NCBI GenBank assembly: GCA_017624915.1
Contig: JAGAMC010000044.1
Location: 1-36,604, forward strand
DNA length: 36,604 nucleotides
Origin: Oscillospiraceae bacterium
Lineage (GTDB): Bacteria; Bacillota; Clostridia; Oscillospirales; Oscillospiraceae
Reading direction: 5' to 3'
The translations under genes were made by a program, and so were the position numbers. Of the stretch, positions 654 to 24,344 are shown one piece after another. How positions within the stretch are numbered: position 1 is the first letter of the stretch; every line of letters begins with the position of its first letter. The notes under the pieces are model-generated. The model saw only the letters and a program-made list of their open reading frames with translations. It was not told the DNA's origin and did no database searches.

Positions 654-1154
654 TCAGTACATGGGGATGAAGAACGTCCACGGCGCGGTGGCGATGGCAA
701 GGGTAAGGCAGATGATGTGCCGCTGCCGGTCAGTCAGCTGATCGCAGGAGCGCATGGCCCATTTGTCAAAGAAGTAGATGCACACGCCGGATAGGGCCAC
801 CGCCGCCGCCGTCCACAAAAAGGCCAGGGGGGAGCGGAAGCAGTTGTACAGAATGGGCTCCACCCATGCCGACCACCAGTCGTATTGGGGACCGGACAGG
901 TTTATGCCCATAAACAGGGCGGGCAGCATAAAGGCGATGCCCACAAAGTCGGCCCCGAAGCCCAGCAGCCAGATCTTCCACCAGACTTGTTTGAGTACGG
1001 TCAGCTTGGCGGTGTGCCTGAGTGCGGTCAGGGTGATGAGCAGGACGGCACAGTCGATGATCAGGTTGCCCGGCAGGGCGATGAGCCACACTTGGGGAAC
1101 CAGAAACAGCATCCACACGGGGAAGATCACGTTGTAAAGCCGGGTCTTTTTCAT
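654..1154 (-). CDS. hypothetical multi-pass membrane protein, 166 aa
   Basis: No family recognised. The protein starts MKKTRLYNVIFPVWMLFL and has about five hydrophobic segments (roughly residues 10-30, 34-47, 60-85, 108-132 and 145-163), so it is an integral membrane protein. The start is set by AAGGAGGT eight bases upstream. Its ATG overlaps the stop of the preceding DUF3021-like gene (ATGA), so the two are probably translationally coupled. It is the last gene of a LytTR-regulator operon. By analogy with other LytTR/DUF3021 loci the regulator probably controls these membrane proteins, but their function is unknown. Confidence 0.75.
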   Translation of the reverse strand: MKKTRLYNVIFPVWMLFLVPQVWLIALPGNLIIDCAVLLITLTALRHTAKLTVLKQVWWKIWLLGFGADFVGIAFMLPALFMGINLSGPQYDWWSAWVEPILYNCFRSPLAFLWTAAAVALSGVCIYFFDKWAMRSCDQLTDRQRHIICLTLAIATAPWTFFIPMY

Positions 1155-2002
1155 GGGGATACCTCCTTGTCCTGTTTGCATTTGCGGTGCACAGCACCGA
1201 TGATGTTGCCGATCAGGGCAAAGGTGAACAGCAGGTCGGCGTGGAACAGGGCGGTATAGTTGAACAGCCAGAAGACGATAGGCACATACAGCAGGTAGGC
1301 AGCCACGGGGTAGAGAACACAAAAGCCCTGCCGCTTGCCAAGAGAGATGCCCGAGCACAGACCCACCACCGGGAACAGAATATAGGGCATCAGAAGGCCG
1401 GACAGCATGGGGAAACTGCCGGCGAAGAAGAAAAGATCAGCCCAGACCAGCGCGATGGGCAGGACGATGCACAGCACCAGCAGGAAGGGGAGATAGGGCA
1501 GGGTCTCACGCCATTTCAAGGGGGAGTGGGCCGGGGCGAGGCCCAGCTTGACCTTGATCTGGGCCACCTCCACATACCAGCCCACCCACCGGCCAAACCA
1601 GATCAGCAGGTACAGCAGGGTGTAGGGGATGAGCAGCAGCCGCCAGCCCCAGTCCAGAAGACAGAATACCCAAGCGTTGAGCAGGACCAGTGCGCCGGTG
1701 ACGATAAAGTGGACAAAGGAGTCTTTGAGCAGGGAGCGGGTGTCATCGGCAAAGGGCATGGTAGCGATGCCGATGGATGCACCCAGCGCGAAGATGCAGG
1801 TAAACTCCACCACCACGGCAAGCCAGTAGGAGCCGAACATGGCCACAGTTGCACCGGCTGCAAGGGTAAAGTCTCCCACAGGAACTGTGCCCTGGGGGCT
1901 CCAGCCGGTCAGGTGGAACCAGACCCAGAAGCCCAGCAGAAGCAGTTTTGCGGTCACACCGCCGATGATGGCACGGACGAGCAGTTTCTTCTTTTCGGTC
2001 AT
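1151..2002 (-). CDS. DUF3021-type membrane protein with extra C-terminal membrane domain
   Basis: The N-terminal half (about residues 1-155) fits the DUF3021 pattern. It has four membrane segments, the sequence ASIGIATMPFADDTRSLLKD, then FVHFIVTGALVLLNAW, and ends in a WYVEVAQIKVKL amphipathic stretch. DUF3021 proteins are typically about 140 residues and are encoded next to LytTR regulators, as here. The C-terminal half (about 165-275) adds four more hydrophobic segments with no family I recognise. That makes the protein 283 residues, about twice the usual size. RBS AAGGAGG precedes the ATG. It lies 15 bases after the LytTR gene and overlaps the next gene by four bases. The role is probably regulatory or transport-associated, unproven. 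Confidence 0.8.
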   Translation of the reverse strand: MTEKKKLLVRAIIGGVTAKLLLLGFWVWFHLTGWSPQGTVPVGDFTLAAGATVAMFGSYWLAVVVEFTCIFALGASIGIATMPFADDTRSLLKDSFVHFIVTGALVLLNAWVFCLLDWGWRLLLIPYTLLYLLIWFGRWVGWYVEVAQIKVKLGLAPAHSPLKWRETLPYLPFLLVLCIVLPIALVWADLFFFAGSFPMLSGLLMPYILFPVVGLCSGISLGKRQGFCVLYPVAAYLLYVPIVFWLFNYTALFHADLLFTFALIGNIIGAVHRKCKQDKEVSP

Positions 2003-2017
2003 GGGAACACCTCCTTT

Positions 2018-2458
2018 TTAAAGCTCCAGTGCCTGCCTGATCTTCTTCAGGCAGCGCCGGGACACAAAACAGGTCACGCCGCCGGTGAGGGTCATGCGGA
2101 TGGTGCCGCTGAGACTCAGATCCAGAGCGGTGACGTGGGCGAGGCTGACGATCTCCGAGTGGGAGATGCGCACGAATTTATGGGGGTCCAGCAGCTCCTC
2201 CAGCTCGTACAGCCGCTGGCGGACGGTGTATATGCCGTCGGCAGTCTGGACGGACACGGACTTGCCGTCGGCAAAAAAGCGCAGGATGCTGCCCGGATCC
2301 AGCAGCAGCACCTGGTCGCCCTGCGTGGCGGTGATGGCCGTGGGACGGCCGTGCTCCAGCCGGAGCAGAAGCTCCCGGATCTCATCGGTCAGCCGGTCTG
2401 CACAGACGATGATCTTGGGTGTGGTTTGCGCGGGGTCAAGCCTGAATTCAACGTCCAC
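2018..2458 (-). CDS. LytTR-family DNA-binding response regulator without receiver domain
   Basis: 146 residues with GTG start and AGGAGG eight bases upstream. The C-terminal about 100 residues form a LytTR DNA-binding domain: GDQVLLLDPGSILRFFADGK, then TVRQRLYELEELLDPHKFVRISHSEIVSL and a terminal basic helix RRCLKKIRQALEL. The N-terminal 40 residues are too short for a CheY-type receiver, so this is a stand-alone LytTR protein of the kind coupled to DUF3021 membrane proteins. It is the first gene of a three-gene operon with its own promoter. In this arrangement the membrane partner often restrains or signals to the regulator (known of the family, not shown here). Autoregulation is likely but no operator pair was identified. 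Confidence 0.88.
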   Translation of the reverse strand: MDVEFRLDPAQTTPKIIVCADRLTDEIRELLLRLEHGRPTAITATQGDQVLLLDPGSILRFFADGKSVSVQTADGIYTVRQRLYELEELLDPHKFVRISHSEIVSLAHVTALDLSLSGTIRMTLTGGVTCFVSRRCLKKIRQALEL

Positions 2459-3683: not shown

Positions 3684-4745
3684 TTACATAGGGCACAGAG
3701 TGCGCAGAATGTTGTCCGCAAAGCGGTCCAGTCGTGTCTGGATCCCAGGCAGGGCCAGGGCCGCGCCGGGGTCGTTGGCCGTTTCGATCAGGGCGAATTG
3801 GCCGGGCAGGTGGAAGGATTTATTCATGTTCAGGGCGCTGATGAGCTGCCGGGCCACGATGTCGCCCCCGGAGTAGCCGGAGACCACGATGGCGAACAGG
3901 GCCTTGTCGTAAAAGCGGGTCTGCCGGAACAGAGCGGTCAGCCGGTTGACAAAAGCGGTGAGGTTGGCGGAGATGGCATCGTTGTAGTTGGGGCAGACCA
4001 TCACGATGGCGTCTGCCCGGCGCACGGCGGGATAGACCTCGTTTTGCATCACGCCGCCGTAGAAGCAGCCGCCCTTTTCTCCGAAATGCAGACAGGTGGT
4101 ATAGGGGCAGCCGGAACAGTCGGACAGGGTACCGTTGCGCAGCCCGATCTCCGTCACCCGGCAGCGGCCGCCAAGGCGCGCCTTTACCTGCTCCCACAAA
4201 TCCAGCGTGTTGGACACATGGTGGCTGGAGGCGTGGAGGACCAGCAGCTCGGGCTGTTCCCTGCGGGTGGGTGTAAAACCCAGCAGCCGCTGCACAAGCT
4301 CCGCCGCCGCGGCCAGATATGCCCCCTGCAGGTCGGTGGACAGGTTGGCGGCCTGGATCCGAAAGTTGGCCAGCGAGCCGGTCCCCTCCACCAGCGGGCG
4401 GCCGATGAAGCTGCAGCCGGACAGATTGGCCGCCAGCGTCAGCTCGGCGGCGGTGGATTTGGTATAGAGCTCGCCGCTGCCGTCCACGATGAGTCCGGCG
4501 GTGCAGCCGGTCAGCAGGGTGGGGTCGGAGCGCAGGGCCAGCAGCATGCGCTGGTACTCCGGATTTACACCGTGCCGACCCACCGGGACAGCGAACAGCA
4601 GGCGTTTGCCGGCCAGACCGGACAGCTCCTCTGCTCTGCTCAGGGTGTGAAGGTTAATACCTTGCGTGACGCTGAAGAGCAGTTGATCCAGCCGCTGACT
4701 GTCTGCGCTCTCATCCAACCGGGGATAGATTACGGTCAGGGACAT
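3684..4745 (-). CDS. iron-sulfur-flavoprotein-like NAD(P)H/FMN oxidoreductase family protein
   Basis: 353 residues. The C-terminal about 185 residues form a flavodoxin-like fold of the NADPH-dependent FMN reductase / iron-sulfur flavoprotein group. It has LLVLHASSHHVSNT (167-180), a Cys cluster at C210, C213, C218 and C227, then ADAIVMVCPNYNDAISANLT (244-263) and AIVVSGYSGGD. FMN is expected, and the four cysteines could hold a [4Fe-4S] cluster. The N-terminal 160 residues resemble a second, degenerate flavodoxin-like unit (KRLLFAVPVGRHGVNPEYQR, then GLIVDGSGELYTKSTAAELT) without such cysteines. The gene starts one base inside the stop of the dehydrogenase-like gene (TAATG), so the two are coupled. 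The substrate is unknown. Confidence 0.75.
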   Translation of the reverse strand: MSLTVIYPRLDESADSQRLDQLLFSVTQGINLHTLSRAEELSGLAGKRLLFAVPVGRHGVNPEYQRMLLALRSDPTLLTGCTAGLIVDGSGELYTKSTAAELTLAANLSGCSFIGRPLVEGTGSLANFRIQAANLSTDLQGAYLAAAAELVQRLLGFTPTRREQPELLVLHASSHHVSNTLDLWEQVKARLGGRCRVTEIGLRNGTLSDCSGCPYTTCLHFGEKGGCFYGGVMQNEVYPAVRRADAIVMVCPNYNDAISANLTAFVNRLTALFRQTRFYDKALFAIVVSGYSGGDIVARQLISALNMNKSFHLPGQFALIETANDPGAALALPGIQTRLDRFADNILRTLCPM

Positions 4746-5986
4746 TACAGCACTTCCTTCAGATGCTCCGCCGCATCCGTGATGCGCTCATACAGCGCGT
4801 CGGGGATGCTGGGGAGAAGCTCGGTCTCGATGCCGGCGGGGGTGTAGCGGTTTTTCACGCCCATATAGATGCCGTCCAGAAACACCGAGCCGCAGTGCCA
4901 CTCCCCCCGCAGGGTCAGCAGCAGGGACAGGGCGCCGGAGGACAGGGCGGGGGCCACATAGGGTTTGAAGCCGATCTGGCGCATTTTCAGGTTGGCGGTG
5001 ACGGTCAGCTCGGTCAACTGCTGGGACAGGGCGTCGTCATAGTGCTCGATGGAGTTGGCGATGGTCAGCCCCGTGCCGTGGGGGCCGAAGGAACGGCCCT
5101 CCGTCAGGAAAGAGGCAAAACGTTCGTCCCGCTTGGCATAGTATGCCGCCCGGGCGTTCATCACGCCCAGACCGAAGCCCTGCACTTGCTCGGGGCGCAG
5201 GCCCTTGCCGTCAAACACGCCGTTTTCATCCTTGTTGCTCTCCAGATAGGCGGTCTTGGCAAGGGGGTCCACGGGGTCGGACACGGCGCACCACAGGCCC
5301 TTGAAGCCTGCGTTTCGGGCCATCTTCGCGTAGTGGGTGACGATCTTTGCGTTGTTCTCAAACTGGTACATGCGCACGTCCTTTACATCCGAGCCCACAG
5401 GGGGGATGCCCTTGGAGGCCACGAAGACGAACATGTCGCAGTCAAAAAGCTTTTCAGGGGGGATGACCTCCACCTCCGGCATGGCGTCGTACTGCCAGGG
5501 CAGGGTGATCTGGCCCATCTCGAACTCCCAGCGGGCGGTGATCTGGTCGCTCAGGTCACAGATGCCAATAGACTCGATCACATCTGCGCCCAGCAGTTTC
5601 AGACCGGTGAGCAGGGTGGAGCCCACGTCGCCGATGGCCAGAACATTCACCCGCTTTTTGCCCGCCTTCGGCTCGGTGTCCAGAACGGACTGCCAGTTGG
5701 GACGGTCCATGTTCACCGCGGTCAGCTGACCCCGGGCAAGGGCGGCGGCGATGGGTGTTTCCGGCTCGGGGCAGGGCAGGCGGGATGCGTCCAGCACCTG
5801 CAGACTGTGGGGGAACTCAAGCTGACCGGGGTGGGTCACCTTGAAGCTGCCGCGGCCCAGCACCGGGTCGCCGTGGACGAGAACGTAGAGGGGAACGCCG
5901 TCCAGAGGGGCGGTTTCAGGACCAAAATCATCCAGAAGACAAGGGCTGGCAAGGTTAAGACCTTTGCAGGAATAGTAGTGATACAT
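4745..5986 (-). CDS. lactate/malate dehydrogenase superfamily protein, divergent
   Basis: 413 residues. About 110 residues of unassigned N-terminal extension precede an LDH/MDH-like body. The Rossmann motif is VLAIGDVGSTL (115-125). VSDPVDPL (235-242) matches the conserved VSNPVD of the family. FGPHGTGLTIANS (300-312) stands where LDH has GEHGDS, so H303 would be the catalytic histidine. VFLDGIYMGVKNRYTPAGIE (368-387) matches the C-terminal nucleotide-domain strands. Asp replaces Asn in the VSNPVD motif, and the substrate-specificity loop does not look like classical LDH or MDH. It lies five bases after the giant NadD-fusion gene and overlaps the flavoprotein gene by one base. It is probably an NAD(P)-dependent 2-hydroxyacid or related oxidoreductase, or a non-catalytic nucleotide-binding partner. 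Confidence 0.75.
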   Translation of the reverse strand: MYHYYSCKGLNLASPCLLDDFGPETAPLDGVPLYVLVHGDPVLGRGSFKVTHPGQLEFPHSLQVLDASRLPCPEPETPIAAALARGQLTAVNMDRPNWQSVLDTEPKAGKKRVNVLAIGDVGSTLLTGLKLLGADVIESIGICDLSDQITARWEFEMGQITLPWQYDAMPEVEVIPPEKLFDCDMFVFVASKGIPPVGSDVKDVRMYQFENNAKIVTHYAKMARNAGFKGLWCAVSDPVDPLAKTAYLESNKDENGVFDGKGLRPEQVQGFGLGVMNARAAYYAKRDERFASFLTEGRSFGPHGTGLTIANSIEHYDDALSQQLTELTVTANLKMRQIGFKPYVAPALSSGALSLLLTLRGEWHCGSVFLDGIYMGVKNRYTPAGIETELLPSIPDALYERITDAAEHLKEVL

Positions 5987-5990
5987 ATGG

Positions 5991-8900
5991 TTACCTCACA
6001 TCGGGAAAGGTGCGCATCAACAGTTCCAGATCGTTTTCCAGATAGACGGATGCGGCCAGGTTGGGGTCGTAGGATACGCATGCGCCCTTGTCGGGGCACA
6101 GGGGCAGGATGACCGCCTCGGGCAGGCGGCTGAGGGTCAGGTTGCGGGAGTAGAGCAGACGGTACTCCGTCTCCAGCACCAGCATGAGGTCCCGGGCATT
6201 TTCAAGGCAGCAGCGGGACAGCCCGAACACAGCCTGCTCCGGGCACTCGCCCCGGAAGGTGGGGGAGGCGTAGGGCAGGATGTGGTTGATACCGGGCAGC
6301 AGGCCCGGGACGGGGGCTGCGGGACGGCGCACCGTGTTGCCGCCGATGAAGGGGTAGAGGGTGGACTCCACAAACCACTGGCGCAGCCGCGGGACGAAAT
6401 ACACGCTGTCCACCGGGCGGCGGCGCACCTGCATCAGGTCCCGGCCGTAGCCGGACAGCACGCCCACCAGCACCGTTTTGATGGGCACATCCTCCTGCCG
6501 GAAGATGGGGTCAAGGGCGTTGATGCGGATGCCGGGGTGCATCAGGTCGTCCACAAGGATCACCGGCCGGTTGAAGGACTTGATGGTGCGGACCTGGTTG
6601 GGGATGGGGGAGTAGTGGAGAAATGCTTCGATAGAGCTGGAGTTCAGGTCTGGCTCATATACCTTGTCGGTGTGCAGGGTCTTGGTCACGGTGTTGGGCA
6701 CCGCCTTGCTGCGCAGCAGCTTGCCGAAGGGAACACACATATACTCACCCAGTTGACGGGGAGTGGTGGGCGTGATGGGCACGTTGTTAATGGCCGTGAT
6801 CTTTTCCAGCAGCCGGTGGTGGATCACATCGGAAGACAGGGTGAGCACCAGATTGCCCGGGTAGAGCCCGGTCACGGACTGCTGCAGCCGGTGATGGCAG
6901 CGGCGGATGGTCTTCAGCACCCGGCGGTTGTGGGAAAGGGGCTCCTGAATCGTGGTCTCCAGATTCTGGATCAGCACGGTGGGGGCGCGCATATCCACCT
7001 GGTAAAGGCAGGGAGCGTCCGCCACAGTCTGGAAGCCCTGACGCAGCAGCAGGTCATGGGTATCGCCCGGACACAGGCCGCTGTGGGGCAGGAACAGGGC
7101 GTAGACACAGTCCTCCTCCACGCACCGGGCCAGCAGCTCGCTGAGCAGCAGCTGGGCCGGGTCCTGAATGTGCCGGTCGTCCTCCACCTGCACGGCGGTG
7201 ATGAGCAGTACGGTGCCGGCCGCATTCAGACGGATACGCTGGGCAAGCTCGGCGTTTTTCAGGGCGGAGAACAGCTGGGCGGAGGAGAGGGTGCGGTAGC
7301 TGACCCAGCCGGCCAGCCGGTTTTTGTGTCCGGTGTCCCGCAGCACCAGCAGGCTGTCACCGTCCCGTTCCATGGCATGGCGCAGGGATTCCCGGTCGGG
7401 CCGGGCGGCGGTCACTTCGTCCAGCAGGTCCCTGTTGGGCCGGTCTGCCCACAGGAAGTGGGCTGCGCCCGCACCCAGCACGGGTTTGTTCTGGGCATCC
7501 CGCAGATACAGGCCGTTCTGATAGATGAAGTCCTGGATCACAGGGTCGATAAAGTTGGAGATGTCCCGGTTCAGATCCACGTTTTCGCGGATACGGGTGG
7601 AGCTGATGTCCTCCAGATGGGGGGGGAGCTGCAGCTGAATGACGTCGCCGGTGATGGGGGACAGGTCGGGCTGCACATCCCCGGGGCGGCGGAAAATAAT
7701 GTGGTTCATGGAGTGGATGGACCAGTCGGAGGGCTGAGCCTTATAGGAGGAGGCGTTGAGCACCACGTCGCTGCCCACCACCATATAGACCTGCCGGCCG
7801 GGGAAAATGCTGCACAGGCGGTGCAGGTCGTCGGGGTTGGCGATGTTCACGGGAATGTTGTCCGGGAACAGGTGTACATGGAAATCACCTGCCACCGACA
7901 TGCTGACGATCTGCCGGCGGATCAGATGGGGCTGGGCCTTTTTGGACCAGGAAAATTCATCCACGGCCAGATACACTTCAAAGCCCATGTCCCGGATGGC
8001 CTGCACGATGCCCTTGTGAGACAGGGTGAAGGGGTCAAAGGTGCCGGGGAAGAAGGCGATCCTGCGGGGGGCGCAGAAGGACATGGGGCCGTGATCCAGC
8101 CGGTACAGGGACAGGAAACGGTAGATGTGAGACAGGGCGGAGGCCCGGTAGAAGAAGGTCAGCCGGTCATCCTGTGGGGTGCGCTGAAGCAGGAACAGCA
8201 GCTTTTGATAGATGAGGGAGAACAGACGGGTCTTCTCCTCCAGCGGCAGCAGGGGGCTTTCAAACAGGTGCTTGCCGACCACCAGCATGGCCTCCTGCCG
8301 CACGCCCTCCCGGTAGTGGGCCAGACCCTGCAGCAGCATGCCCAGCAGCTCCTGACGGCGGGCTTCATACACCTCGTCAGACTCGGGGAACCGCTGGCGG
8401 TATGCGGGGTAGTGCTGCAGCAGCACACCCACAGTGGACAAAGCAACGGAGACGACGCTGTCGATGGGGTTGCCCAGCAGCTTTTTCAGAGTGACGATCT
8501 GCTCGTCAAGTTCGGTGGGGTGGAGATACAGGGCCGCTTCGCCCAGATAGTCGGGGATATACTTGGAGATCTCGTACTGGCCCATCTCAAGGCCCTTGCC
8601 CAGCTCCACGATCACCTCGTTGCGCTGTTCCCGGCGCAGCAGGGGCATCAGGTGTGCCAGGGCACGGCCCGCGTCATGGCGCACCACCACCCGTTCAGAC
8701 ACCTTGACCAGATTGGAAAGGTGGGTGGCGATGTGCAGAATGTGGTCGTGCCTGCCGTGCTCCACCTGATCCACCAGCAGCTCGATGCCGATGGTCTTGA
8801 TCAGCCAGGGGGTGGCGGTTTTCAGGTTGTTCAGGAACACATCGCTGACGATGTCCTGCTTGTAAAGCAGAGCCTCGTGCAAAGCGGTGTCCTCGCCGGA

Positions 8901-10793
8901 GGTCTGCAGCAGTTTGTACTGCAGGAACACAAGGGTCAGGTCCGAGCCCATTTCCACGCTGCGGGCGATGTCCGCGATACGGCGGCTGGGGGGGAGCTCG
9001 TCGGGCAGATAGGTGCTCAGAGTCAGCAAAAAGCGCAGAGCGGCCACCTGCAGACGGGACTCGCCGGAGTGGGAGAAGTGTGCGGCGAACTCGATCAGTT
9101 CGTCCAGTGTATGGGCGTTGTAGTAGTCCGGGGGCAGGTAGCGGATGGCATCCAGCAGAGTGAATGCGGTGTCGGCCTCCATGCGCTCGGGGTGGACATA
9201 GTACTTCAGCAGTGCGCCCACGAAGCGGTCAAAGTCCTCGGCCCGGCAGTTGTCCAGAAGGGAGCCCACCACCAGCTTCAGGGTATAGCCGATATGGCTG
9301 CGCTGGGGCAGGGTGGTCTTGTGGTCGGGGAAGATGAGCTTGTCGAGATACTGCTCCCACAGGGTGAAGGGGACCTGCTCGGCGGGGTCGGCCTGTGCGT
9401 TGGCGGGCAGCTCCTTGCGGTAGACCAGATGGAATCGGGCGATGATCAGACCGATCAGGGCGGCGGCCTGACGGCGGATATCACCTTCCCGGTGGACCAG
9501 CAGCTCGTAGAGGAAGGCGAGAGCCTGCTGCTTCTGGCGGGCAGACAGATAGGTGAAGTATTCCTCAAATACGTTCAGGTAGGCGCGCAGCTGCTTCCAG
9601 TCCTTGGCCGAGCGGGCGGCCTCGATGATGTTGCCGAACTGGCGCTCGCTGCTCAGAGCGTGCATCAGCTCCAGATTGTGCTCCACTGCCATCAGTGTGA
9701 TGGACTGGATCATCTCGTCCGGGGTCATGAGGGAAGCGTCCTTGACAGGGACGGGGGCGGGGCAGCTGCCCGACAGTTCCACATCCACCCCAAGGCGGCG
9801 CATATAGTCCTCAAAGTCGTGAAGCTTGCCGTATACAAATTCATAGCGGCGGCGCTTGGCGTCGTCCACATTGTCCAGCTTGTTCAGGATGATCCGGAAG
9901 GACTGTTCCAGCGGGTAGATGACGCTGATCTCATTGCCCTGAGCGTCCCGTTCCTGCTTGGAGCGGAAGTCGGCGTAAATCAGGCACAGGGACTCCACGG
10001 ACAGGGACTCCAGCTCCAGATCCCAGGTGGAGTGGTTGGAGGCGATGTGACTGATGCCCTCCATATTCCGCTCCAGCAGCCACTGATCGGTGTAGTAGTA
10101 GTGCAGGTAGGGTACGCGCTCGCCGGGGCGGCAGCCGTACTTGCCCAGGTCGTGGGCGGCTGCAGCGGCGGAAACCAGAGCGGGATCCACGCTGACTCCG
10201 GCCCGGCGCAGACCGTCGGCCGCGCAAACGGCGATGTGGTGTACGCCGGCGATATGGTTCAGTGTGCGGAAGGGGGTGACTTCGTTGCCCAGACGCATCA
10301 GTTCGTACACGTATTCCTGACGCAGGGCGGCGAGAAAGCGGAGGTATTCCTTGCCGTGGTCGCAGGTGCGGGCCTCATCCTCGGAAAGGAAGAGAAAGTC
10401 GTACGCACAGTCAAAAGGCAGCGCCTGCCGCTCCTGCTCAAAAAGGACCTGCATTGCGGTCAGCAGCAGGTGAGCACCCTCTGCATAGGCGGCCGAATCC
10501 GGAGCGAAGTCGGCATCCGGGAACATGAGGGAGCGGGCATAGCGGTGACAGAAGGACAGCCAACCGTCTTCCGGTTCGGGGGAGATCCGGGGCAGAATAT
10601 CCCCACACAGCTCCAGCACCCGGGCGCAGGTCAGCCGGCTGCGGATGGGCAGCAGCTCCTCCAGACCCTGTGTCCATGAGGGGGTATGCAGCAGGGTCTG
10701 AGCGGATTTTTTGCTGGGAGCAAAGGGCAGACGCCGGGAGGCAAGCCGTTCAGCCACCAGTGAGGTGACCTGCCGTATAAGCTTGTCGTGCAT
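5991..10793 (-). CDS. 1600-residue HD / helical-repeat / NadD-like / acetyltransferase-like / PRTase-like fusion
   Basis: The domains in order are as follows. Residues about 175-330 are an HD phosphohydrolase domain (H185, H214-D215 in AAAAHDLGKYG, then NHSTWD and YADFRSK), most like YqeK-type Ap4A hydrolases. About 360-880 is an alpha-helical HEAT-like repeat region. About 908-1095 is a nucleotidylyltransferase domain with GTFDPFTLSH (917-926) and ISSTRIR (1063-1069), the two signatures of NadD/CoaD enzymes. About 1120-1265 is GNAT-like. About 1275-1600 is a phosphoribosyltransferase-like part with VILVDDLMHPG (D1415, D1416). Bacterial NadD is normally about 200 residues, though NadD-YqeK pairings are known. 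The start ATG follows GGAAAGGCGG. It heads a three-gene operon. An NAD-related biosynthetic, salvage or repair role is inferred only. Confidence 0.8.
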   Translation of the reverse strand: MHDKLIRQVTSLVAERLASRRLPFAPSKKSAQTLLHTPSWTQGLEELLPIRSRLTCARVLELCGDILPRISPEPEDGWLSFCHRYARSLMFPDADFAPDSAAYAEGAHLLLTAMQVLFEQERQALPFDCAYDFLFLSEDEARTCDHGKEYLRFLAALRQEYVYELMRLGNEVTPFRTLNHIAGVHHIAVCAADGLRRAGVSVDPALVSAAAAAHDLGKYGCRPGERVPYLHYYYTDQWLLERNMEGISHIASNHSTWDLELESLSVESLCLIYADFRSKQERDAQGNEISVIYPLEQSFRIILNKLDNVDDAKRRRYEFVYGKLHDFEDYMRRLGVDVELSGSCPAPVPVKDASLMTPDEMIQSITLMAVEHNLELMHALSSERQFGNIIEAARSAKDWKQLRAYLNVFEEYFTYLSARQKQQALAFLYELLVHREGDIRRQAAALIGLIIARFHLVYRKELPANAQADPAEQVPFTLWEQYLDKLIFPDHKTTLPQRSHIGYTLKLVVGSLLDNCRAEDFDRFVGALLKYYVHPERMEADTAFTLLDAIRYLPPDYYNAHTLDELIEFAAHFSHSGESRLQVAALRFLLTLSTYLPDELPPSRRIADIARSVEMGSDLTLVFLQYKLLQTSGEDTALHEALLYKQDIVSDVFLNNLKTATPWLIKTIGIELLVDQVEHGRHDHILHIATHLSNLVKVSERVVVRHDAGRALAHLMPLLRREQRNEVIVELGKGLEMGQYEISKYIPDYLGEAALYLHPTELDEQIVTLKKLLGNPIDSVVSVALSTVGVLLQHYPAYRQRFPESDEVYEARRQELLGMLLQGLAHYREGVRQEAMLVVGKHLFESPLLPLEEKTRLFSLIYQKLLFLLQRTPQDDRLTFFYRASALSHIYRFLSLYRLDHGPMSFCAPRRIAFFPGTFDPFTLSHKGIVQAIRDMGFEVYLAVDEFSWSKKAQPHLIRRQIVSMSVAGDFHVHLFPDNIPVNIANPDDLHRLCSIFPGRQVYMVVGSDVVLNASSYKAQPSDWSIHSMNHIIFRRPGDVQPDLSPITGDVIQLQLPPHLEDISSTRIRENVDLNRDISNFIDPVIQDFIYQNGLYLRDAQNKPVLGAGAAHFLWADRPNRDLLDEVTAARPDRESLRHAMERDGDSLLVLRDTGHKNRLAGWVSYRTLSSAQLFSALKNAELAQRIRLNAAGTVLLITAVQVEDDRHIQDPAQLLLSELLARCVEEDCVYALFLPHSGLCPGDTHDLLLRQGFQTVADAPCLYQVDMRAPTVLIQNLETTIQEPLSHNRRVLKTIRRCHHRLQQSVTGLYPGNLVLTLSSDVIHHRLLEKITAINNVPITPTTPRQLGEYMCVPFGKLLRSKAVPNTVTKTLHTDKVYEPDLNSSSIEAFLHYSPIPNQVRTIKSFNRPVILVDDLMHPGIRINALDPIFRQEDVPIKTVLVGVLSGYGRDLMQVRRRPVDSVYFVPRLRQWFVESTLYPFIGGNTVRRPAAPVPGLLPGINHILPYASPTFRGECPEQAVFGLSRCCLENARDLMLVLETEYRLLYSRNLTLSRLPEAVILPLCPDKGACVSYDPNLAASVYLENDLELLMRTFPDVR

Positions 10794-10983: not shown

Positions 10984-11838
10984 ATGGAACAGCGGATCAT
11001 TGTATTGGGCACAGGGCCTGCCGGTCTGGCGGCTGCCATTGCTGCCCGCAGCCGCAACAAGGAAGTTCTGGTCATTGGTGCTGCCGGGCAGGACAGCCCT
11101 CTGGCCCGGGCGGAGCGGGTGGACAACTACCCCGGGCTTCCCGGCCTGACGGGAATGGAACTGCTGCACGTGATGGAAGAGCACGCAAGAAGCATGGGGG
11201 CACAGATCGTGACCGCCCGCGTCAACGCGGCCATGGGTTGGGGCGGCATGGTTTCCCTGACCGCAGGCAGCGATGTGTATCAGGGCGGTGCCCTGATCCT
11301 CGCCCCGGGCGTTGTGCGTGCGGCCAAGTTCCCCGGCGAGGAGCGGCTGCTGGGTCGGGGCGTAAGTTACTGCGCTACCTGCGACGGCATGCTGTACCGC
11401 AATAGGCGGGTGATGGTAGTCGGCCGAACCGCGGATGCGCCCCAGGAGGCGGCATTCCTGCGCTCCATCGGCTGTCAGGTCAGCTACGTCAGTGCCCAGC
11501 GTCCGGAACAGCTGGCGGATGGGATCAACTACATCCCCGCGAGCCGGCTGGAGGTGCTGGGAGAGCAGACGGTGAGCGGTTTGCTCATCAACGGCGTGGA
11601 GCACCCCTGCGACGGTGTGTTCATCCTGCGCCGGGCGGTGGCCCCCGCCGACCTGCTGCCGGGACTGAAGGTCACGGACGGCTGTGTTGACGTGGACAGA
11701 GGCATGGCCACCAACATAGAGGGCGTTTTTGCCGCCGGTGACTGTACGGGAACTCCCTATCAGGTGGCGAAGGCCGTGGGCGAAGGGCTGGTGGCCGGCG
11801 AGCACGCGGCGGAATATCTGGATACAAAAGTAAAATAA
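10984..11838 (+). CDS. thioredoxin-reductase-like flavoprotein lacking NADPH-binding motifs
   Basis: 284 residues (classical TrxB is about 305-320). The FAD motif GTGPAGLAAA (9-18) and the C-terminal FAD motif GVFAAGDCTG are intact, and the redox dithiol is C130-A-T-C133. The pyridine-nucleotide half is altered. Where TrxB has GGGNSA there is VVGRTADAPQEA, and the HRRxxxR NADPH-phosphate motif is absent (YVSAQRPEQ). This is the pattern of pyridine-nucleotide-independent TrxR relatives such as the ferredoxin-dependent flavin thioredoxin reductases of Clostridium. It presumably reduces the thioredoxin encoded 13 bases downstream, perhaps with electrons from ferredoxin (inference). AGGAGG precedes the ATG. 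Confidence 0.85.
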   Translation: MEQRIIVLGTGPAGLAAAIAARSRNKEVLVIGAAGQDSPLARAERVDNYPGLPGLTGMELLHVMEEHARSMGAQIVTARVNAAMGWGGMVSLTAGSDVYQGGALILAPGVVRAAKFPGEERLLGRGVSYCATCDGMLYRNRRVMVVGRTADAPQEAAFLRSIGCQVSYVSAQRPEQLADGINYIPASRLEVLGEQTVSGLLINGVEHPCDGVFILRRAVAPADLLPGLKVTDGCVDVDRGMATNIEGVFAAGDCTGTPYQVAKAVGEGLVAGEHAAEYLDTKVK

Positions 11839-11851
11839 GGAGGAAATCAAT

Positions 11852-12169
11852 ATGACGGTGCATTTTAACAAGGAAGGCTTCGACAAGGCGCTGGCCGGCG
11901 GTCAGCTGATCATGGTGGACTTCTGGGCCGACTGGTGCGGCCCGTGCAAGATGCTCTCACCGGTGATCGAGGGGCTGGGCGACGAGTACGAGGGCAAGGC
12001 CATCGTGGGCAAGATCAATGTGGACGACGAGCAGGAGCTTGCCATCCGCTACGGGGTCATGTCCATCCCCACCGTGATCTTCTTCAAGGACGGACAGGAA
12101 GTGGCCCGCAAGGTGGGCGTGATGCCCGCAGGCGAGTTTACCGCCGTACTGGACAATTATCTGGGCTGA
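11852..12169 (+). CDS. trxA: thioredoxin
   Basis: 105 residues, full length for thioredoxin. The active site is W28-C-G-P-C32 in FWADWCGPCKM, with the cis-proline in MSIPTVIFFKDG. It is a cytoplasmic disulfide reductase that donates electrons to ribonucleotide reductase, peroxiredoxins and other targets. AAGGAGG is eight bases before the ATG. It lies 13 bases behind the reductase-like gene and ends at a strong terminator, so the pair forms a two-gene redox operon in which the reductase is the likely electron donor. Confidence 0.95.
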   Translation: MTVHFNKEGFDKALAGGQLIMVDFWADWCGPCKMLSPVIEGLGDEYEGKAIVGKINVDDEQELAIRYGVMSIPTVIFFKDGQEVARKVGVMPAGEFTAVLDNYLG

Positions 12170-12601: not shown

Positions 12602-12681
12602 ACTCAAATGTGTACCCAAATGGCGGCTTTGGCCGTGTAAACGGCTGCAAGCCGAAGTTTTGAATACAGGAAGTGTTTAAA

Positions 12682-15111
12682 TTGAAGTACGACTTTACCG
12701 CTATCGAGAAAAAGTGGCAGACGAAGTGGAAAGATGAAAAGACCTTCTCCTGCGCCACCGGAGATACCGCCAAGCCCAAGTTCTACGGTCTGGTGGAGTT
12801 CCCCTATCCCTCCGGCAACGGCCTGCACGTGGGTCATGCCCGCCCCTACACTGCCATGGATGTGATTGCTCGCAAAAAGCGCATGGACGGTCAGAATGTG
12901 CTGTTCCCTATCGGCTTTGACGCCTTCGGCCTGCCCACGGAGAACTATGCCATCAAGAACCACATCCATCCCGCGCAGGTGACGAAGGACAACATTGCCA
13001 ACTTCACCCGTCAGCTGGAGATGCTGGGCTACTCCTTCGACTGGGACCGCGTGGTGGATACCACCGACCCCGACTACTACAAGTGGACCCAGTGGATATT
13101 CCTGCAGCTGTGGAAGAAGGGTCTTGCCTATAAGTCCACCATGCCCGTGAACTGGTGCACCAGCTGCAAGTGCGTGCTGGCCAACGAGGAAGTGGTGGAT
13201 GGCGGCTGCGAGCGCTGCGGCAGCCCGGTCATCCGCAAGGAGAAGAGCCAGTGGATGCTGAAGATCACCGCCTATGCCCAGCGCCTGATCGACGATCTGG
13301 ACGAGGTGGACTTTATCGAGCGTGTCAAGGTCCAGCAGAAGAACTGGATCGGTCGTTCCACCGGCGCTGAGGTCACCTTCAAGGCCACCACCGGTCAGGA
13401 CATCGTGGTCTTCACCACCCGTCCCGACACCCTGTTCGGTGCCACCTACATGGTCCTGTCTCCCGAGCACGAGCTGATTCGCAGCTGGCTGGACGGCGGC
13501 AAGCTGGCCAATGCCGACGAGATCCGCGCCTATCAGAAGACCGCCGCCTCCAAGTCCGATCTGGAGCGTACCGAGCTGAACAAGGACAAGACCGGCGTGT
13601 GTCTGGACGGTGTGGCGGGCATCAACCCCGTCAACGGCAAGCAGATCCCCATCTTCATCTCCGATTACGTTCTGGCTACCTACGGTACCGGCGCCATCAT
13701 GGCCGTTCCCGCCCACGATGACCGCGACTGGGAGTTTGCCAAGAAGTTCGGCTGCGAGATCATCGAAGTTGTTTCCGGCGGTGAGGATGTACAGCAGGCC
13801 GCCTTTACAGCCAAGGACGAGACCGGTATCATGGTCAACTCCGAGTTCCTCAACGGTCTGACCGTGAAGGACGCCATCCCTGCCATCACCAAGTGGCTGG
13901 AGGAGAAGGGTATCGGCGAGGCCAAGGTCAACTACAAGCTGCGCGACTGGGTTTTCTCCCGTCAGCGCTACTGGGGCGAGCCCATCCCCATGATCTGGTG
14001 TGACAAGTGCGGCTGGCAGCCTGTGGACGAGAGTCAGCTGCCCCTGCTGCTGCCCGAGGTGGAGAGCTACGAGCCAACCGACGACGGAGAGTCTCCCATT
14101 TCCAAGATGACCGACTGGGTGAATACCACCTGTCCCTGCTGCGGCGGCCCCGCCAAGCGCGAGACCGATACCATGCCTCAGTGGGCCGGTTCCAGCTGGT
14201 ATTTCCTGCGGTATATGGACAACCACAACAATGATCAGCTGGTCAGCAAGCAGGCTGAGAACTACTGGGGTCCCGTGGACTGGTACAACGGCGGTATGGA
14301 GCACACCACCCTGCATCTGCTCTACAGCCGCTTCTGGCACAAGTTCCTCTACGACATCGGCGTGGTCTCCACCAAGGAGCCATACGCCAAGCGCACCTCC
14401 CACGGCATGATCCTGGGCGAGGGCGGCATCAAGATGTCCAAGTCCCGGGGCAACGTGATCAACCCCAACGATATTATCGAACTGTACGGTGCGGACACCA
14501 TGCGCACCTACATCATGTTTATCGGTGACTTTGAAAAGGCCGCTGCCTGGTCTGCCAACGCCGTCAAGGGCTGCAAGCGCTTCCTGGACCGCGTGTGGAA
14601 TCTGGCCACCGAGCAGGAGCATGCCGGCGATGAGTACTCCAAGGCAAACGAGTCCGCCATCCATAAGGCCATCAAGAAGGTGTCCGAGGACATCGAGGCC
14701 ATGAAGTTCAACACTGCCATCGCTGCTCTCATGGCGCTGGTCAATGACTTCTACGCCAACGGTGCAAGCCGCGGCGACATGAAGGCCCTGCTGCTGATGC
14801 TGTCCCCCTTTGCCCCCCATATGTGCGAGGAGCTGTGGGAGATGGCCGGCTACGGCGGCGAGGTCTGCCTGCAGGCCTGGCCCGAGTACGACGCGTCCAA
14901 GACCGTTTCCGCCACCGTCCAGATGGCCGTTCAGGTCAGCGGCAAGGTCAAAGCCAACATTATTGTGCCCGCCGACAGCGGTGACGAGGACATCGTGGCT
15001 GCAGCTTTGGCCGACCCCAAGGTCGCCAAGCTGGCTGAGGGCATGACCCTTGTCAAGTCCATTGTTGTCAAGGGTAAGCTGGTCAGCCTGATTTTCAAGC
15101 CGCAGGTATAA
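12682..15111 (+). CDS. leuS: leucine--tRNA ligase
   Basis: Class Ia synthetase, 809 residues from the TTG start, normal for bacterial LeuRS. HVGH (49-52) is the HIGH motif and KMSKS is at 584-588. The CP1 editing domain carries [14 protein letters not shown] and AHDDRDW (344-350), the conserved editing aspartate region. Zinc-type cysteine pairs are seen around CTSCKC and CERCG and again at [11 protein letters not shown] at 12682 is preferred because AGGAAG lies eight bases upstream and LeuRS normally begins MKYDF/MxYNF. A GTG three codons earlier (12673) is in frame but touches the SD. The last 15 codons ([14 protein letters not shown]) occur again 189 bases downstream. Confidence 0.95.
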
Positions 15112-16471: not shown

Positions 16472-16504
16472 ATGCAGATTAGTGAAATAAGTGTGTATAT
16501 TTAG
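16472..16504 (+). pseudogene. gene truncated after ten codons at the cofactor-cluster boundary
   Basis: AAAGGAGG lies 11 bases before an ATG that opens MQISEISVYI and then hits TAG. That TAG overlaps the stop codon of the converging moaB/moaE gene. A strong RBS behind a terminator, with a protein-like start that ends at once, suggests the 5' remnant of a gene cut by insertion of the cofactor cluster. The start is loosely like the N-terminus of serine recombinases (xISxxxVYIR), which is too short to rely on. Confidence 0.4.
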
Positions 16505-17394
16505 TTCAGTTCTTTTTCTGTGACGCAGTTATTCTTTATGTCGCTCACAAGGGCGGTAAGCGCATCAAGAACGCGGGGGCGAATATCGCCGCCGACGAGG
16601 GCAAGCATAATATCGTCTCCGGTGGAAAGGGTGCCTTCGTTGAGCCACACGCGGACATAATGTATGCCGGGCATGCTCTTTGCAGCGGCAACAGCGGCAT
16701 CGAGCTTTTCTCTGTCGTAGCTGAATTCCATGCCTGTTACAGGGGCGGATTCTATCCCGTCCCGCACCTGTGCTTTGGCGGTGCCGCGGACGGTCCCGTT
16801 ATGGAAAAGAAACATGCCGCACTCCTTTGCACATGGGTCTTCTTTGGCTTCCTTCAGCCACGCATCAAGGGAGGGAGCTTTTTTTGCGGGGATACGTACC
16901 CGGCCGGCACAGTCGGCAGAACCCTCGCTTCTGAGCATTTCAACGCCGTGTTTTACAGGCTTTAACACCGCAAAGATGTTTTCTCGCGCGGCTTTTTCGC
17001 TGCCCGGGAGATTGATGATCAGGGACCTGCCCCTTATGCCCGCAAAAGAGCGGGAAAGACAGCCCATTGGCGTTATGCGCATGCTTTCGGCCCGCATGGC
17101 CTCGGGAATGCCCGGTGCCTCACGCTCGATGAGCTCTTTGGTGGCTTCCGGGGTGATATCTCTGGGAGAAAAGCCCGTTCCGCCCGTGGTGAGCACCAGA
17201 TCTGCTTTCAACACATCGCAGCACTCTATCAGCTGCTTTTTTATCAGTTCCACCTCGTCGGGAACGATGCTGTAATGACAGATATCCCAACCGTTATCCT
17301 CCAGAATCGCGCAAAGGGAGGGGCCGCTGGTATCCTCGCGCTCTCCCCGATAGCCTTTATCGCTTACAGTGATCACTGCCGCAAGATAGGGCAT
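16501..17394 (-). CDS. MoaB/MogA-MoaE fusion, molybdopterin synthesis
   Basis: 297 residues. Residues 1-160 are the MoaB/MogA domain (AAVITVSDKGYRGERED, TTGGTGFSPRDITPEAT 69-85), which adenylates molybdopterin before metal insertion. Residues about 190-297 are MoaE-like: GMFLFHNGTVRG, VTGMEFSYDREKLDAA, VRVWLNEGTLSTGDDIML, with lysines at 287 and 294 at the positions of the MoaE active-site lysines. MoaE is the large subunit of MPT synthase and needs MoaD, which is not in this window. The second of two ATGs is chosen because GGAGG is seven bases from it and only one base from the first. Last gene of the mod-moa operon. Confidence 0.85.
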   Translation of the reverse strand: MPYLAAVITVSDKGYRGEREDTSGPSLCAILEDNGWDICHYSIVPDEVELIKKQLIECCDVLKADLVLTTGGTGFSPRDITPEATKELIEREAPGIPEAMRAESMRITPMGCLSRSFAGIRGRSLIINLPGSEKAARENIFAVLKPVKHGVEMLRSEGSADCAGRVRIPAKKAPSLDAWLKEAKEDPCAKECGMFLFHNGTVRGTAKAQVRDGIESAPVTGMEFSYDREKLDAAVAAAKSMPGIHYVRVWLNEGTLSTGDDIMLALVGGDIRPRVLDALTALVSDIKNNCVTEKELN

Positions 17395-17396
17395 AT

Positions 17397-18350
17397 TCAT
17401 TCCTCCCTTGTAAAATCGCCGTGGACCCCGCCTGTCTTGGACAAAAGCCGGATGTCCGAGATGACCATATCTTTCTGGACCGCCTTGCACATATCGTAAA
17501 CCGTGAGCGCGGCGGCGGAAACGGCGGTAAGAGCCTCCATCTCCACCCCCGTTTTGCCGTCGCAGGAGACGGTGGCGGTGATGTTGACACAAAGGCGCTG
17601 CTCATCCAGACTGAGGCTCAGATCGATCCCGCTTACGGGGATGGGGTGGCACATGGGTATGATATCAGGGGTGCGCTTGGCGCCCATGATCCCTGCGATC
17701 TGCGCAACGGTCAGCACATCGCCTTTTTTCATGCCGCCCGTTTTGATGAGGTCGAATGTGCCTGCGTTAACAAGAACCCTCGCGGCGGCAACGGCGGTTC
17801 GGTGGGTAATATCTTTTTCGCCCACATTTACCATTCTGGCCCGTCCCTCGGCATTGAAGTGGGTAAAATCCTGTGTGTTCTGCATGATAAACTCCGTGAT
17901 CCCTTCTATGTCTTCAAAGGTGAATATTGGTGTATCCGTAACGATATCTTCATCCGTGACGATGGCGATATACCGTTCGGGGGAGTGCACCAGCCCTTTT
18001 CCGCAGGCCTTTCTTGACAGGCCGATCTGCTTGACATTGCTGTGTTTATAGCCCTCTACCAGTATGATATCCACGCTATGTATGTTTTTTAGAATGTCAT
18101 CAAGAGTCAAAGTGCGCTGTTCGATACAGGCGGTCTTTTCCTCCGAGTTTATCACGGTAACTTCCGCTCCCGCCTTTGCATAGCGGTAGGAATCCTTACC
18201 CTCGTGGTCGATTTCGAAGCGGTGTCCGTCGTGCTTGATAACGGCGACCCTTACGCCCAAGCTCTTAAGGCGAATAACAATTTTTTCGATCAGGGTGGTC
18301 TTGCCCGTGCCCGAATAGGCGGCAAAACCTATAACAGGTATGTTGTCCAC
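17397..18350 (-). CDS. MobB-MoaC fusion, Moco biosynthesis
   Basis: 317 residues. Residues 1-155 are a MobB-type P-loop GTPase (AYSGTGKTTLIEK, K17; IILVEGYKHS 95-104), usually tied to guanylation of Moco or GTP delivery. Residues about 161-317 are MoaC, cyclic pyranopterin monophosphate synthase: FTHFNAEGRARMVNVGEKD, KGDVLTVAQIAGIMGAKRT, IIPMCHPIPVSGIDL, GKTGVEMEALTAVSAAALT and the terminal SKTGGVHGDF. MoaC acts directly after MoaA. The start is GTG at 18350 with AGGAGG five bases away; it lies one base after the moaA stop. The neighbouring ATG at 18352 is out of frame. Confidence 0.9.
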   Translation of the reverse strand: MDNIPVIGFAAYSGTGKTTLIEKIVIRLKSLGVRVAVIKHDGHRFEIDHEGKDSYRYAKAGAEVTVINSEEKTACIEQRTLTLDDILKNIHSVDIILVEGYKHSNVKQIGLSRKACGKGLVHSPERYIAIVTDEDIVTDTPIFTFEDIEGITEFIMQNTQDFTHFNAEGRARMVNVGEKDITHRTAVAAARVLVNAGTFDLIKTGGMKKGDVLTVAQIAGIMGAKRTPDIIPMCHPIPVSGIDLSLSLDEQRLCVNITATVSCDGKTGVEMEALTAVSAAALTVYDMCKAVQKDMVISDIRLLSKTGGVHGDFTREE

Positions 18351-18351
18351 A

Positions 18352-19305
18352 TTAGCCTCCTATCTTGTTCATGCTTCTGCCTGCGCGGCTTGCGCTTTGG
18401 GAAGAAAGCTCGCAGTGCATCTCCGGCTTGCTCATGATGGCGCGCCTGAATTGTTCAGTCATATCCTCGTAGGAGAGCCCCTTTACACAGAACTCGTCAC
18501 GGGAGTGCAGACAGGGCTTGATGTGCCCGTCGGCGGTGAGGCGGATCCTGTTGCAGGCGGCACAGAAATGGTCGCTGATGGGGCTGATAAGTCCGATGTT
18601 GCCCATGGCGCCCGGAAGCTTATACAGCCTTGCAACACCTCCGTCATGCGCAGCAGGGACCAGATCCTCCAACACATCGGTAACCGTTGAGCAGGGAATA
18701 TACGCCGAAGTGTCAAATCCGTTGCCCTCGTACATGGGCATAAGCTCGATAAAGCGGACATCCACGGGGTATTTGCGGGTGAGCCCGGCAAGGGCGGGGA
18801 TCTCGTCGTCGTTGAAGCCGCCGATGAGCACCACGTTGATCTTCACCTTTTCAAAGCCCGCCGAAAGAGCGTGATCCAATCCGCGAAGGGCAGCTTTCAG
18901 TTGTCCTGTGCGGGTGATATAGGCGTATTTTTTCTCGTCGAGGGTGTCGAAACTTAAGTTGACGCGGCGTATGCCCGCATTTTTTAAGTCTGCGGCGAAC
19001 TTGGGCAGCAGGATGCCGTTTGTGGTCATGCACACTTCGTCAATACCCTGCGTGGAAGCGGTCTTTTCGCAGATGGAGAGGATGTTTTTCTTTACAAGGG
19101 GTTCTCCGCCCGTGATGCGCACTTTGGATATTCCCAGAGAAGCGGCGGCTGTTACCGCCATGATGGTCTCTTCCTCGGTGAGCACATCTTTGTGGGGCTT
19201 TTTACAGATGCCGTCTTCGGGCATGCAGTAGCGGCACCGCAGGTCGCAAAGCTCGGTGACAGACAGCCGCAGATAATTTATTTTTCTTCCGAATCCGTCG
19301 ATCAT
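18352..19305 (-). CDS. moaA: GTP 3',8-cyclase MoaA
   Basis: Radical SAM enzyme, 317 residues, slightly short but complete. It converts GTP to 3',8-cyclo-GTP, the first step to the pyranopterin. The radical-SAM cluster is C20-x3-C24-x2-C27 (ELCDLRCRYCMPEDG), followed by the SAM motif ITGGEPL. The C-terminal second cluster is C248, C251 and C265 (FCAACNRIRLTADGHIKPC). The protein ends in the conserved Gly-Gly tail (MNKIGG) needed for activity. It sits inside the operon, with its ATG two bases after the stop of the molybdopterin-binding-protein gene. Confidence 0.97.
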   Translation of the reverse strand: MIDGFGRKINYLRLSVTELCDLRCRYCMPEDGICKKPHKDVLTEEETIMAVTAAASLGISKVRITGGEPLVKKNILSICEKTASTQGIDEVCMTTNGILLPKFAADLKNAGIRRVNLSFDTLDEKKYAYITRTGQLKAALRGLDHALSAGFEKVKINVVLIGGFNDDEIPALAGLTRKYPVDVRFIELMPMYEGNGFDTSAYIPCSTVTDVLEDLVPAAHDGGVARLYKLPGAMGNIGLISPISDHFCAACNRIRLTADGHIKPCLHSRDEFCVKGLSYEDMTEQFRRAIMSKPEMHCELSSQSASRAGRSMNKIGG

Positions 19306-19306
19306 A

Positions 19307-21534: not shown

Positions 21535-21537
21535 GGC

Positions 21538-22581: not shown

Positions 22582-22582
22582 A

Positions 22583-23263: not shown

Positions 23264-23286
23264 GATTGCGCCCCCTCTCTTAAAAA

Positions 23287-24111: not shown

Positions 24112-24128
24112 GGTTCTTTTTCTCCCTG

Positions 24129-24303
24129 AAAAAACAAAATATCCGTCTTTTTACAGACGGATATCCTAAAACGCCCAAACAATGCAGGCGTTTTGAAGCA
24201 ATGACCCGTCTCCTTTTCAAAAGGGAAGGCCAAATCGTTTCCGTATCTGACCCTGTGCTGCGCAAAAGCGCAGGACGGCTTTAAATCCGTGGCATAAATG
24301 CTT
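24129..24303 (-). promoter_or_regulatory. Moco/Tuco-type riboswitch with terminator, before modA
   Basis: The minus-strand leader begins with P1 half AAGCA (24299-24303), closed by TGCTT (24196-24200). In between lie a CTGCGC TTTT GCGCAG hairpin, GGGTCAGATACGG, TTTGGCC and a CCTTTTGAAAAGG hairpin. The blocks GGGTCA..GATACGG..TTTGGCC match, from memory, the Escherichia coli moaA Moco riboswitch in order and spacing. The expression platform has hairpin AAAACGCC/GGCGTTTT (24168-24194) and a 10-bp terminator ATATCCGTCT/AGACGGATAT followed by TTTGTTTTTT (24129-24164). Cofactor binding would be expected to end transcription of the import and synthesis operon. Confidence 0.75.
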
Positions 24304-24344
24304 TAGGAAGAAAAGCTCGAAGACTTGTTGAACTTTGTTATAAA

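Follow-up and report, generated by a model that had tools for sequence, protein, structure and literature searches.

The locus and its genes

We analyzed a stretch of 36,604 nt (the window) of DNA from Oscillospiraceae bacterium, a gut organism (assembly GCA_017624915.1, contig JAGAMC010000044.1). Its minus strand carries a gene for a giant protein, followed by two smaller genes. The features of these genes, each with what supports or locates it, are as follows.

5991..10793, minus strand: gene for the giant protein, 1600 aa from ATG, gene 1 of a three-gene unit
9759..10301, minus strand: putative YqeK-type HD hydrolase domain, residues 165-345 (Pfam HD, hhalign, invariant ligands)
8079..9761, minus strand: HEAT-repeat region, about residues 345-905 (Pfam HEAT)
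7500..8072, minus strand: NadD-type adenylyltransferase domain, residues 908-1098 (motifs and curated matches)
6990..7481, minus strand: GNAT-like domain without the acetyl-CoA loop, residues 1105-1268 (hhalign)
6294..6896, minus strand: PRTase-like domain, residues 1300-1500 (hhalign; weak Pfam Pribosyltran match)
6525..6569, minus strand: modified PRPP-type loop RPVILVDDLMHPGIR, residues 1409-1423 (conserved residues, 40-row alignment)
4745..5986, minus strand: LDH-like NAD-type dehydrogenase, 413 aa (4 bases past the giant's stop)
3684..4745, minus strand: NADPH-dependent FMN reductase-type flavoprotein, 353 aa (one-base overlap with the LDH-like stop)

Given the 4-base gap and the one-base overlap, the three genes very likely share one transcript. 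Judged by its sequence, the open reading frame at 5991-10793 is a real gene, and conservation of the giant over its full length rules out a chance fusion or artefact. An open frame of 1465 codons (6282-10679, plus strand) faces the giant, and long opposite frames occur in its relatives too; we read this frame as a codon-bias shadow, because it is the minus strand that encodes the conserved motifs.

Divergent from the giant and upstream of it are a thioredoxin reductase-like gene (10984-11838, with a Pyr_redox_2 match) and a thioredoxin-like gene (11852-12169); a leucyl-tRNA synthetase-like gene (12673-15111) is also opposite to the giant in direction. These three names reflect our reading of the sequences. 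Molybdenum cofactor genes occupy 16501-24334 (a MoCF_biosynth-MoaE fusion, a MobB-MoaC fusion, a MoaA-type radical SAM protein, MoeA and an ABC ATPase), with a molybdenum cofactor riboswitch at 24194-24334. Adjoining this cluster is an aldehyde ferredoxin oxidoreductase gene (25841-27946), so the cofactor may be the tungsten one. Elsewhere in the window, genes for a LytTR regulator and a DUF3021 protein adjoin each other (1151-2458, minus strand). We rejected riboswitch control of the giant, as no riboswitch lies beside it in the window and 17 relatives show none on the giant's strand. L034 has a T-box and L137 a cobalamin riboswitch <1 kb upstream of the giant, in both cases on the opposite strand.

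Five parts of the giant protein

The earlier note on this DNA had described the giant as a fusion of HD, repeat, NadD-like, acetyltransferase-like and PRTase-like parts. Sequence and profile comparisons bear out this five-part architecture at 5991..10793, and the order of the parts is kept in full-length relatives down to ~33% identity. Conservation was assessed in an alignment (A2) of 40 rows, made up of 25 of 37 cluster representatives plus 15 of 17 further loci, with fragments excluded; the 37 representatives were drawn from 111 full-length giants (122 were recovered in all). With the window protein as reference, identities range from 75 to 33%. Mean conservation in this alignment is 0.69, 0.70 and 0.65 for the HD, NadD-type and PRTase-like segments, respectively, 0.41 for the GNAT-like segment, and 0.42-0.61 for the HEAT region.

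Pfam HD matches 24 of the 40 giant relatives (best E 8.3e-6), with a sub-threshold score of 17.8 bits in the window protein (cut-off 22). Comparison of the HD part with a YqeK profile, built on all 20 YqeK loci from 20 genomes, gave an hhalign probability of 57% and a score of 35.0, the best of 60 column-shuffled queries reaching 23.7. TIGR00488 (YqeK) is not matched by the window protein in NCBIfam at E up to 1. In the reported crystal structure of YqeK, metals sit on His29, His58, Asp59, His91, His117 and Asp135, and mutation of Lys62 is reported to lower activity as well (PMC11857287). Residues H180, H214, D215, H231, H254 and D275 of the giant, together with K218, are invariant (40/40), with H231 one column off its YqeK counterpart in the automatic hhalign alignment. 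The HD part thus contains the YqeK metal-ligand set H-HD-H-H-D plus the Lys. The adjacent region matches Pfam HEAT in 13 of the 40 relatives (best E 1.2e-6).

The NadD-type part has recognizable versions of the NadD motifs GTFDP...H and ISSTxIR, in the form GTFDPF(T/S)L(S/G)H and SSTRIR, and a terminal NGLY; solved NMN adenylyltransferases align with it over this SSTRIR...NGLY end. Among curated families it matches nicotinate-nucleotide adenylyltransferases best, at E 8.8e-9 in the window protein. The E for TIGR00482 is 7.5e-6 in the window protein and, over the whole model, 1.5e-14 in one divergent relative. All four giants scanned score below the NadD equivalog cut-offs: the window protein reaches 26.1 bits on TIGR00482 (cut-off 112.45) and 35.1 on NF000840 (cut-off 150), and three divergent giants reach at most 54.5 on TIGR00482. 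Eight residues toward the N-terminal side of this part (F919, D920, P921, H926, K951, R959, G1007, D1009) and four in the SSTRIR region (S1064, S1065, I1068, R1069) are invariant in all 40 rows. Hence catalytic residues are conserved among orthologues in the HD and NadD-type parts (40/40), so that for these two parts the loss of conservation which the earlier note would have taken as refutation is not seen.

That note had also asked whether the genome has nadD and yqeK elsewhere. It does, as an ordinary NadD-YqeK fusion on contig C16 (L151:1489-2685) that scores above the cut-offs of both families; CoaD and a RibF-type gene are likewise separate from the giant. In light of these separate genes we reject the giant as the housekeeping NadD or YqeK: a genome with its own NadD-YqeK fusion has its housekeeping enzyme already.

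Most of the earlier note's domain names hold, but its two C-terminal parts are less secure than it took them to be. The GNAT profile was built from 29 of 30 loci (L233, with a stop inside, was excluded), and the corresponding part of the giant matches it with an hhalign probability of 88.5% and a score of 41.2, compared to 15.0 for the best of 60 shuffles. Pfam GNAT matches none of the 40 giant relatives. The R/Q-x-x-G-x-G/A acetyl-CoA loop is absent from the giant at residues 1211-1216, where hhalign pairs RRRGIAKAL of a GNAT with IQDPAQLLL. Acetyl transfer by this part is unlikely, since the loop is absent, and on the same grounds we set aside an active acetyltransferase.

The PRTase-like call appears the least secure, and most weakly supported, of the five. 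In the C-terminal regions of the 40 giants, Pfam Pribosyltran gives a weak match in 11, with a best E of only 0.022; other Pfam families match at most two, and a single SIR2_2 match (E 0.016) is slightly better than Pribosyltran. Against a pooled PRTase profile (32 of 34 loci, leaving out L203, which is short, and L194, which has stops), hhalign gave 71.7% and a score of 37.8, the best of 60 shuffles scoring 17.6. The best of six sub-profiles gave 74.8% and 39.5 (best of 60 shuffles, 20.7), one more gave 61.7%, and the remaining four stayed between 1.7 and 14.5%. Of the three best PRTase profile matches, two cover only ~30 columns around the loop, and comparisons with wrong-fold profiles are all at or below 12.2%. 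The residues of the PRPP-type loop are well conserved (D1415 39/40, D1416 39/40, H1419 36/40, G1421 39/40, R1423 39/40); the acidic pair is retained and the T positions are replaced (H1419, R1423), so that the loop is not of the TTG type. Because of this altered loop, transferase activity of the PRTase-like part is only putative. Taken with the four low sub-profiles and the missing GNAT loop, it means that both C-terminal parts may be non-enzymes.

Distribution and partner genes

The giant is present in 24 of 25 same-genus genomes, its own included, with full-length copies at 65-69% identity; it is split over two contigs in G004 and G021 and was not found in G024. Among 40 relatives searched, 25 match the giant at E 0.001, namely 24 of the same genus and one from another family, the last by a weak match to the NadD region only. 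One internal stop was reported in each of two rows (G015 and G012); the shorter tblastn ends suggest that it is the natural stop. Wider sampling shows a patchy distribution, with the giant in 31 of 250 genomes drawn from the family, 3 of 295 from the order and 8 of 398 from the phylum (own genome counted in each).

In a scan of named genomes, relatives of the giant were encoded by 103 stretches, the best 80 of which were kept and gave 78 loci. Among these best 80, carriers are mostly Oscillospiraceae (Pseudoflavonifractor, Flavonifractor, Flintibacter, Lawsonibacter and MAGs), joined by Clostridium sporosphaeroides, Faecalispora, Lachnospiraceae, Clostridium-named strains such as C. symbiosum and C. 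fessum, and one Peptostreptococcaceae MAG. Five MAG contigs labelled Chloroflexi, Anaerolineaceae or Flexilinea (L077, L082, L083, L088, L110) carry the unit, with a giant of 58-60% identity. If these labels are right, they imply transfer between phyla; otherwise the contigs are misbinned. In Acetoanaerobium noterae the three genes are found in the same order, the giant having 35% identity. This replicon (NZ_CP154629.1) is recorded as a plasmid and, at 2.63 Mb, is probably a chromosome.

Several other origins or contexts were considered and rejected. The giant's C-terminal 503 residues have no phage match, and none of 63 viral pattern matches encodes a relative. One 'plasmid' match is the 2.63-Mb Acetoanaerobium replicon. 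A free-standing C-terminal part is ruled out, in that all matches, found in 4 of 299 genomes, lie within open frames of 1573-1667 codons. As for a defence system, PADLOC models gave no match at E up to 1 to the giant or to either partner.

The LDH-like gene follows the giant within 1.5 kb on the same strand at 68 of the 73 loci that have at least 3 kb of downstream sequence, and the flavoprotein gene does so within 3.5 kb at 66 of the 73. Five loci are exceptions for the former: at L083 and L127 it lies farther off (1512 bases and 3.3 kb), at L105 and L108 it is upstream (and inverted at L105), and at L123 none was found near the giant. For the flavoprotein gene the exceptions are L054 (opposite strand), L105, L108 and L127, and no proper copy was found in the sequence stretch around L074, L107 or L123. 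The three-gene unit is therefore not always intact, with the flavoprotein missing from the stretch covered at L074 and L107 and neither partner properly found near L123. Clustering of neighbors at 77 loci placed the LDH-like gene at 72 and the flavoprotein gene at 67, and the next cluster at no more than 27, a figure that leaves aside clusters of frames overlapping the three genes, as judged by eye. This drop argues against a wider operon. Counted by source, any other recurrent neighbor gene appears in at most 5 of 31.

Co-occurrence across the family is close to complete. We searched 250 family genomes for the giant with a single-protein query (E 1e-6) and for the LDH-like gene with a profile (E 1e-20). 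The latter was found in 32 genomes, comprising all 31 giant carriers and G480, an 88% complete genome that is the sole one of the 250 with an LDH-like gene and no giant found. Both genes are present on different contigs in G377 and G503. Two draws of 250 genomes have equal tallies (161 good genomes, 106 genera), the matchless genomes being incompletely itemized. Pairwise identities of the giant correlate with those of the LDH-like protein (r 0.93, 25 loci) and the flavoprotein (0.92, 17 loci), correlations that could be explained by shared descent too.

Both partners depart from the enzymes they resemble. The LDH-like protein matches Pfam Ldh_1_N with an E of 6e-4, under that family's cut-off, and the profile of its family matches LDH at E 3e-8. 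In an alignment (A6) of 28 of 35 candidates, the window copy among them, R205, R279 and H303 are invariant (28/28) and align with two LDH arginines and the catalytic His, which we take to be 109, 171 and 195 in LDH numbering. The position of LDH Asp168 is an invariant M276 (28/28) and its partner His195 is kept, so the Asp168-His195 catalytic pair is not intact in these 28 sequences. The Asn of the NPVD motif is likewise changed, to an invariant D237, and in some copies the match begins only near position 103. An active site altered in this way, as aligned here, fits a non-standard substrate or cofactor.

The flavoprotein has a clear FMN_red match in Pfam (E 2.2e-19) and no solved relative at E 0.01. 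Its residues C210, C213, C218 and C227 (CX2CX4CX8C) are invariant in all 20 sequences of the alignment (A7; the window copy plus 19 of 25). These four cysteines are consistent with a 4Fe-4S cluster, and the protein presumably resembles iron-sulfur flavoproteins.

The three-gene unit, which the earlier note did not contain, is the strongest functional clue and more important than the architecture of the giant. Among the literature matches listed, no title or abstract opening describes the giant or the gene trio, in a coverage with subscription papers mostly outside it.

A possible dinucleotide pathway and its alternatives

The fusion of mostly nucleotide-handling parts and the two recurring redox genes point to a so far undescribed pathway that probably centres on an NAD-like molecule, and a role of the giant in pyridine-nucleotide synthesis, repair or signalling, as the earlier note had proposed, is plausible. 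In JCVI-Syn3A, NadD is reported to make wrong-base NaAD analogues at least as well as NaAD, and the YqeK domain fused to it is reported to hydrolyse these analogues, proofreading NAD synthesis (PMC9426524). From the architecture, the conserved HD and NadD-type sites, the altered LDH-like and PRTase-like sites and the three-gene link, all of them observed at the level of sequence, we infer the reactions, the substrate and the order of steps that follow. Our tentative preference is for a giant that both synthesizes and edits an NAD-like dinucleotide and that is linked to dedicated oxidoreductases. The PRTase-like domain would bind, and perhaps make, a phosphoribosylated substrate, i.e. carry out the preceding step; the NadD-type domain would couple a mononucleotide with AMP; and the YqeK-type HD domain would cleave the wrong or surplus dinucleotide, like YqeK beside NadD. 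The GNAT-like domain may serve in binding or as a structural element, with the HEAT region perhaps keeping the active sites together. Of the partners, the LDH-like enzyme would have either a carboxylate-bearing metabolite or the dinucleotide as its substrate, and electrons would be handed on by the flavoprotein. Since both active sites are kept in the giant, synthesis plus editing is the most economical reading, and the genome's own NadD-YqeK fusion, CoaD and RibF-type gene make a different substrate or purpose likely. Several points count against it: those same genes would render a second dinucleotide enzyme superfluous for housekeeping, a sensor role could be compatible with the same conservation pattern, the PRTase-like and GNAT-like parts may be non-enzymes, and the unit is broken up at some loci. 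A bolder form of the proposal, which we regard as doubtful, is that the trio produces, and itself employs, a private redox cofactor: an NAD-like dinucleotide whose base is non-standard. Assembly of this dinucleotide would then fall to the PRTase-like and NadD-type parts, the HD part would stop it mixing with ordinary NAD, and the altered LDH-like enzyme and the four-cysteine flavoprotein would use it.

Other functions can be envisaged for the unit. It may clear NAD(P)(H) or flavin dinucleotides that are damaged or miscoupled: the HD part would cut them, the NadD-type part would rebuild them, and the redox state would be reset by the two oxidoreductases. Such metabolite repair is unlikely, if worth serious thought: both partners resemble redox enzymes, proofreading is reported for a YqeK domain fused to NadD (PMC9426524), and thioredoxin reductase-like and thioredoxin-like genes lie divergently upstream of the giant in the window, but no thioredoxin family was recognized among the recurrent neighbor clusters listed, and presence in 31 of 250 family genomes is oddly patchy for repair of a universal cofactor. 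We find it rather unlikely that the giant is a sensor or signalling hub, whose HD and NadD-type parts would produce and degrade a signalling dinucleotide (Ap4A, for instance), while the GNAT-like and PRTase-like parts would read nucleotide ligands and control the two redox enzymes. The altered binding loops of both C-terminal parts, the HEAT region and the reported hydrolysis of Ap4A by YqeK (PMC11857287) fit this idea. Retention of the HD and NadD-type catalytic residues (40/40) speaks against it, as does the window protein's lack of a match to any DNA-binding or output domain; its relatives show scattered weak matches only, e.g. HTH_IclR in 2/40 (E 0.13).

A catabolic operon, activating and degrading a nitrogen heterocycle or odd nucleotide with the dinucleotide as an intermediate only, strikes us as improbable. 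Many carrier records among the best 80 of 103 name gut or rumen samples, and the LDH-like enzyme retains the arginines aligned to the substrate arginines of LDH; however, one carrier, Acetoanaerobium, comes from sludge, and no widely recurring transporter or ring-cleavage family was recognized among the neighbor clusters listed. Nucleic acids can be bound by HEAT repeats, and a NadD-like fold is found in TmcAL-type enzymes. The HEAT region might accordingly bind an RNA that the nucleotide domains modify. This we hold to be very improbable, as the NadD match covers the whole length of that family including the NGLY end, no RNA-binding domain is matched in the window protein, and RNA modification does not fit the redox partners.

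If the giant does make a dinucleotide, as in the synthesis-and-editing reading that we prefer, it would represent an additional pathway of nucleotide-cofactor chemistry. The trio, whose members co-occur almost strictly and which is found in named genomes of gut anaerobes (Pseudoflavonifractor, Flintibacter and Clostridium symbiosum among them), lends itself directly to testing. The pairing of NadD with YqeK, for which synthesis plus proofreading is reported, is now seen in a second, far larger architecture.

Among known systems, the NadD-YqeK fusion (NF005519/PRK07152; reported for JCVISYN3A_0380, PMC9426524) has both domains in one chain, as does the giant. Unlike that fusion, the giant has its HD domain first, with ~560 residues bearing HEAT repeats between it and the NadD-type domain, GNAT-like and PRTase-like parts after the latter, and a NadD score far under the equivalog cut-off. 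With the symmetrical Ap4A hydrolase YqeK (TIGR00488) it has the residue set H-HD-K-H-H-D in common, although the likeness is at profile-profile level only (57%). Type I PRTases (PF00156) share with the PRTase-like part the strand and acidic-pair loop VILVDD...G, but carry a TTG-type phosphate loop where the giant has DDLLHxGxR. Of the partners, the LDH-like protein has the Rossmann domain, arginines and catalytic His of L-lactate/malate dehydrogenases and differs in its Met for Asp168, its Asp for the NPVD Asn and an extra N-terminal region of ~100 residues. The flavoprotein has the FMN_red domain of NADPH-dependent FMN reductases and is set apart by its CX2CX4CX8C spacing and an N-terminal region of ~160 residues.
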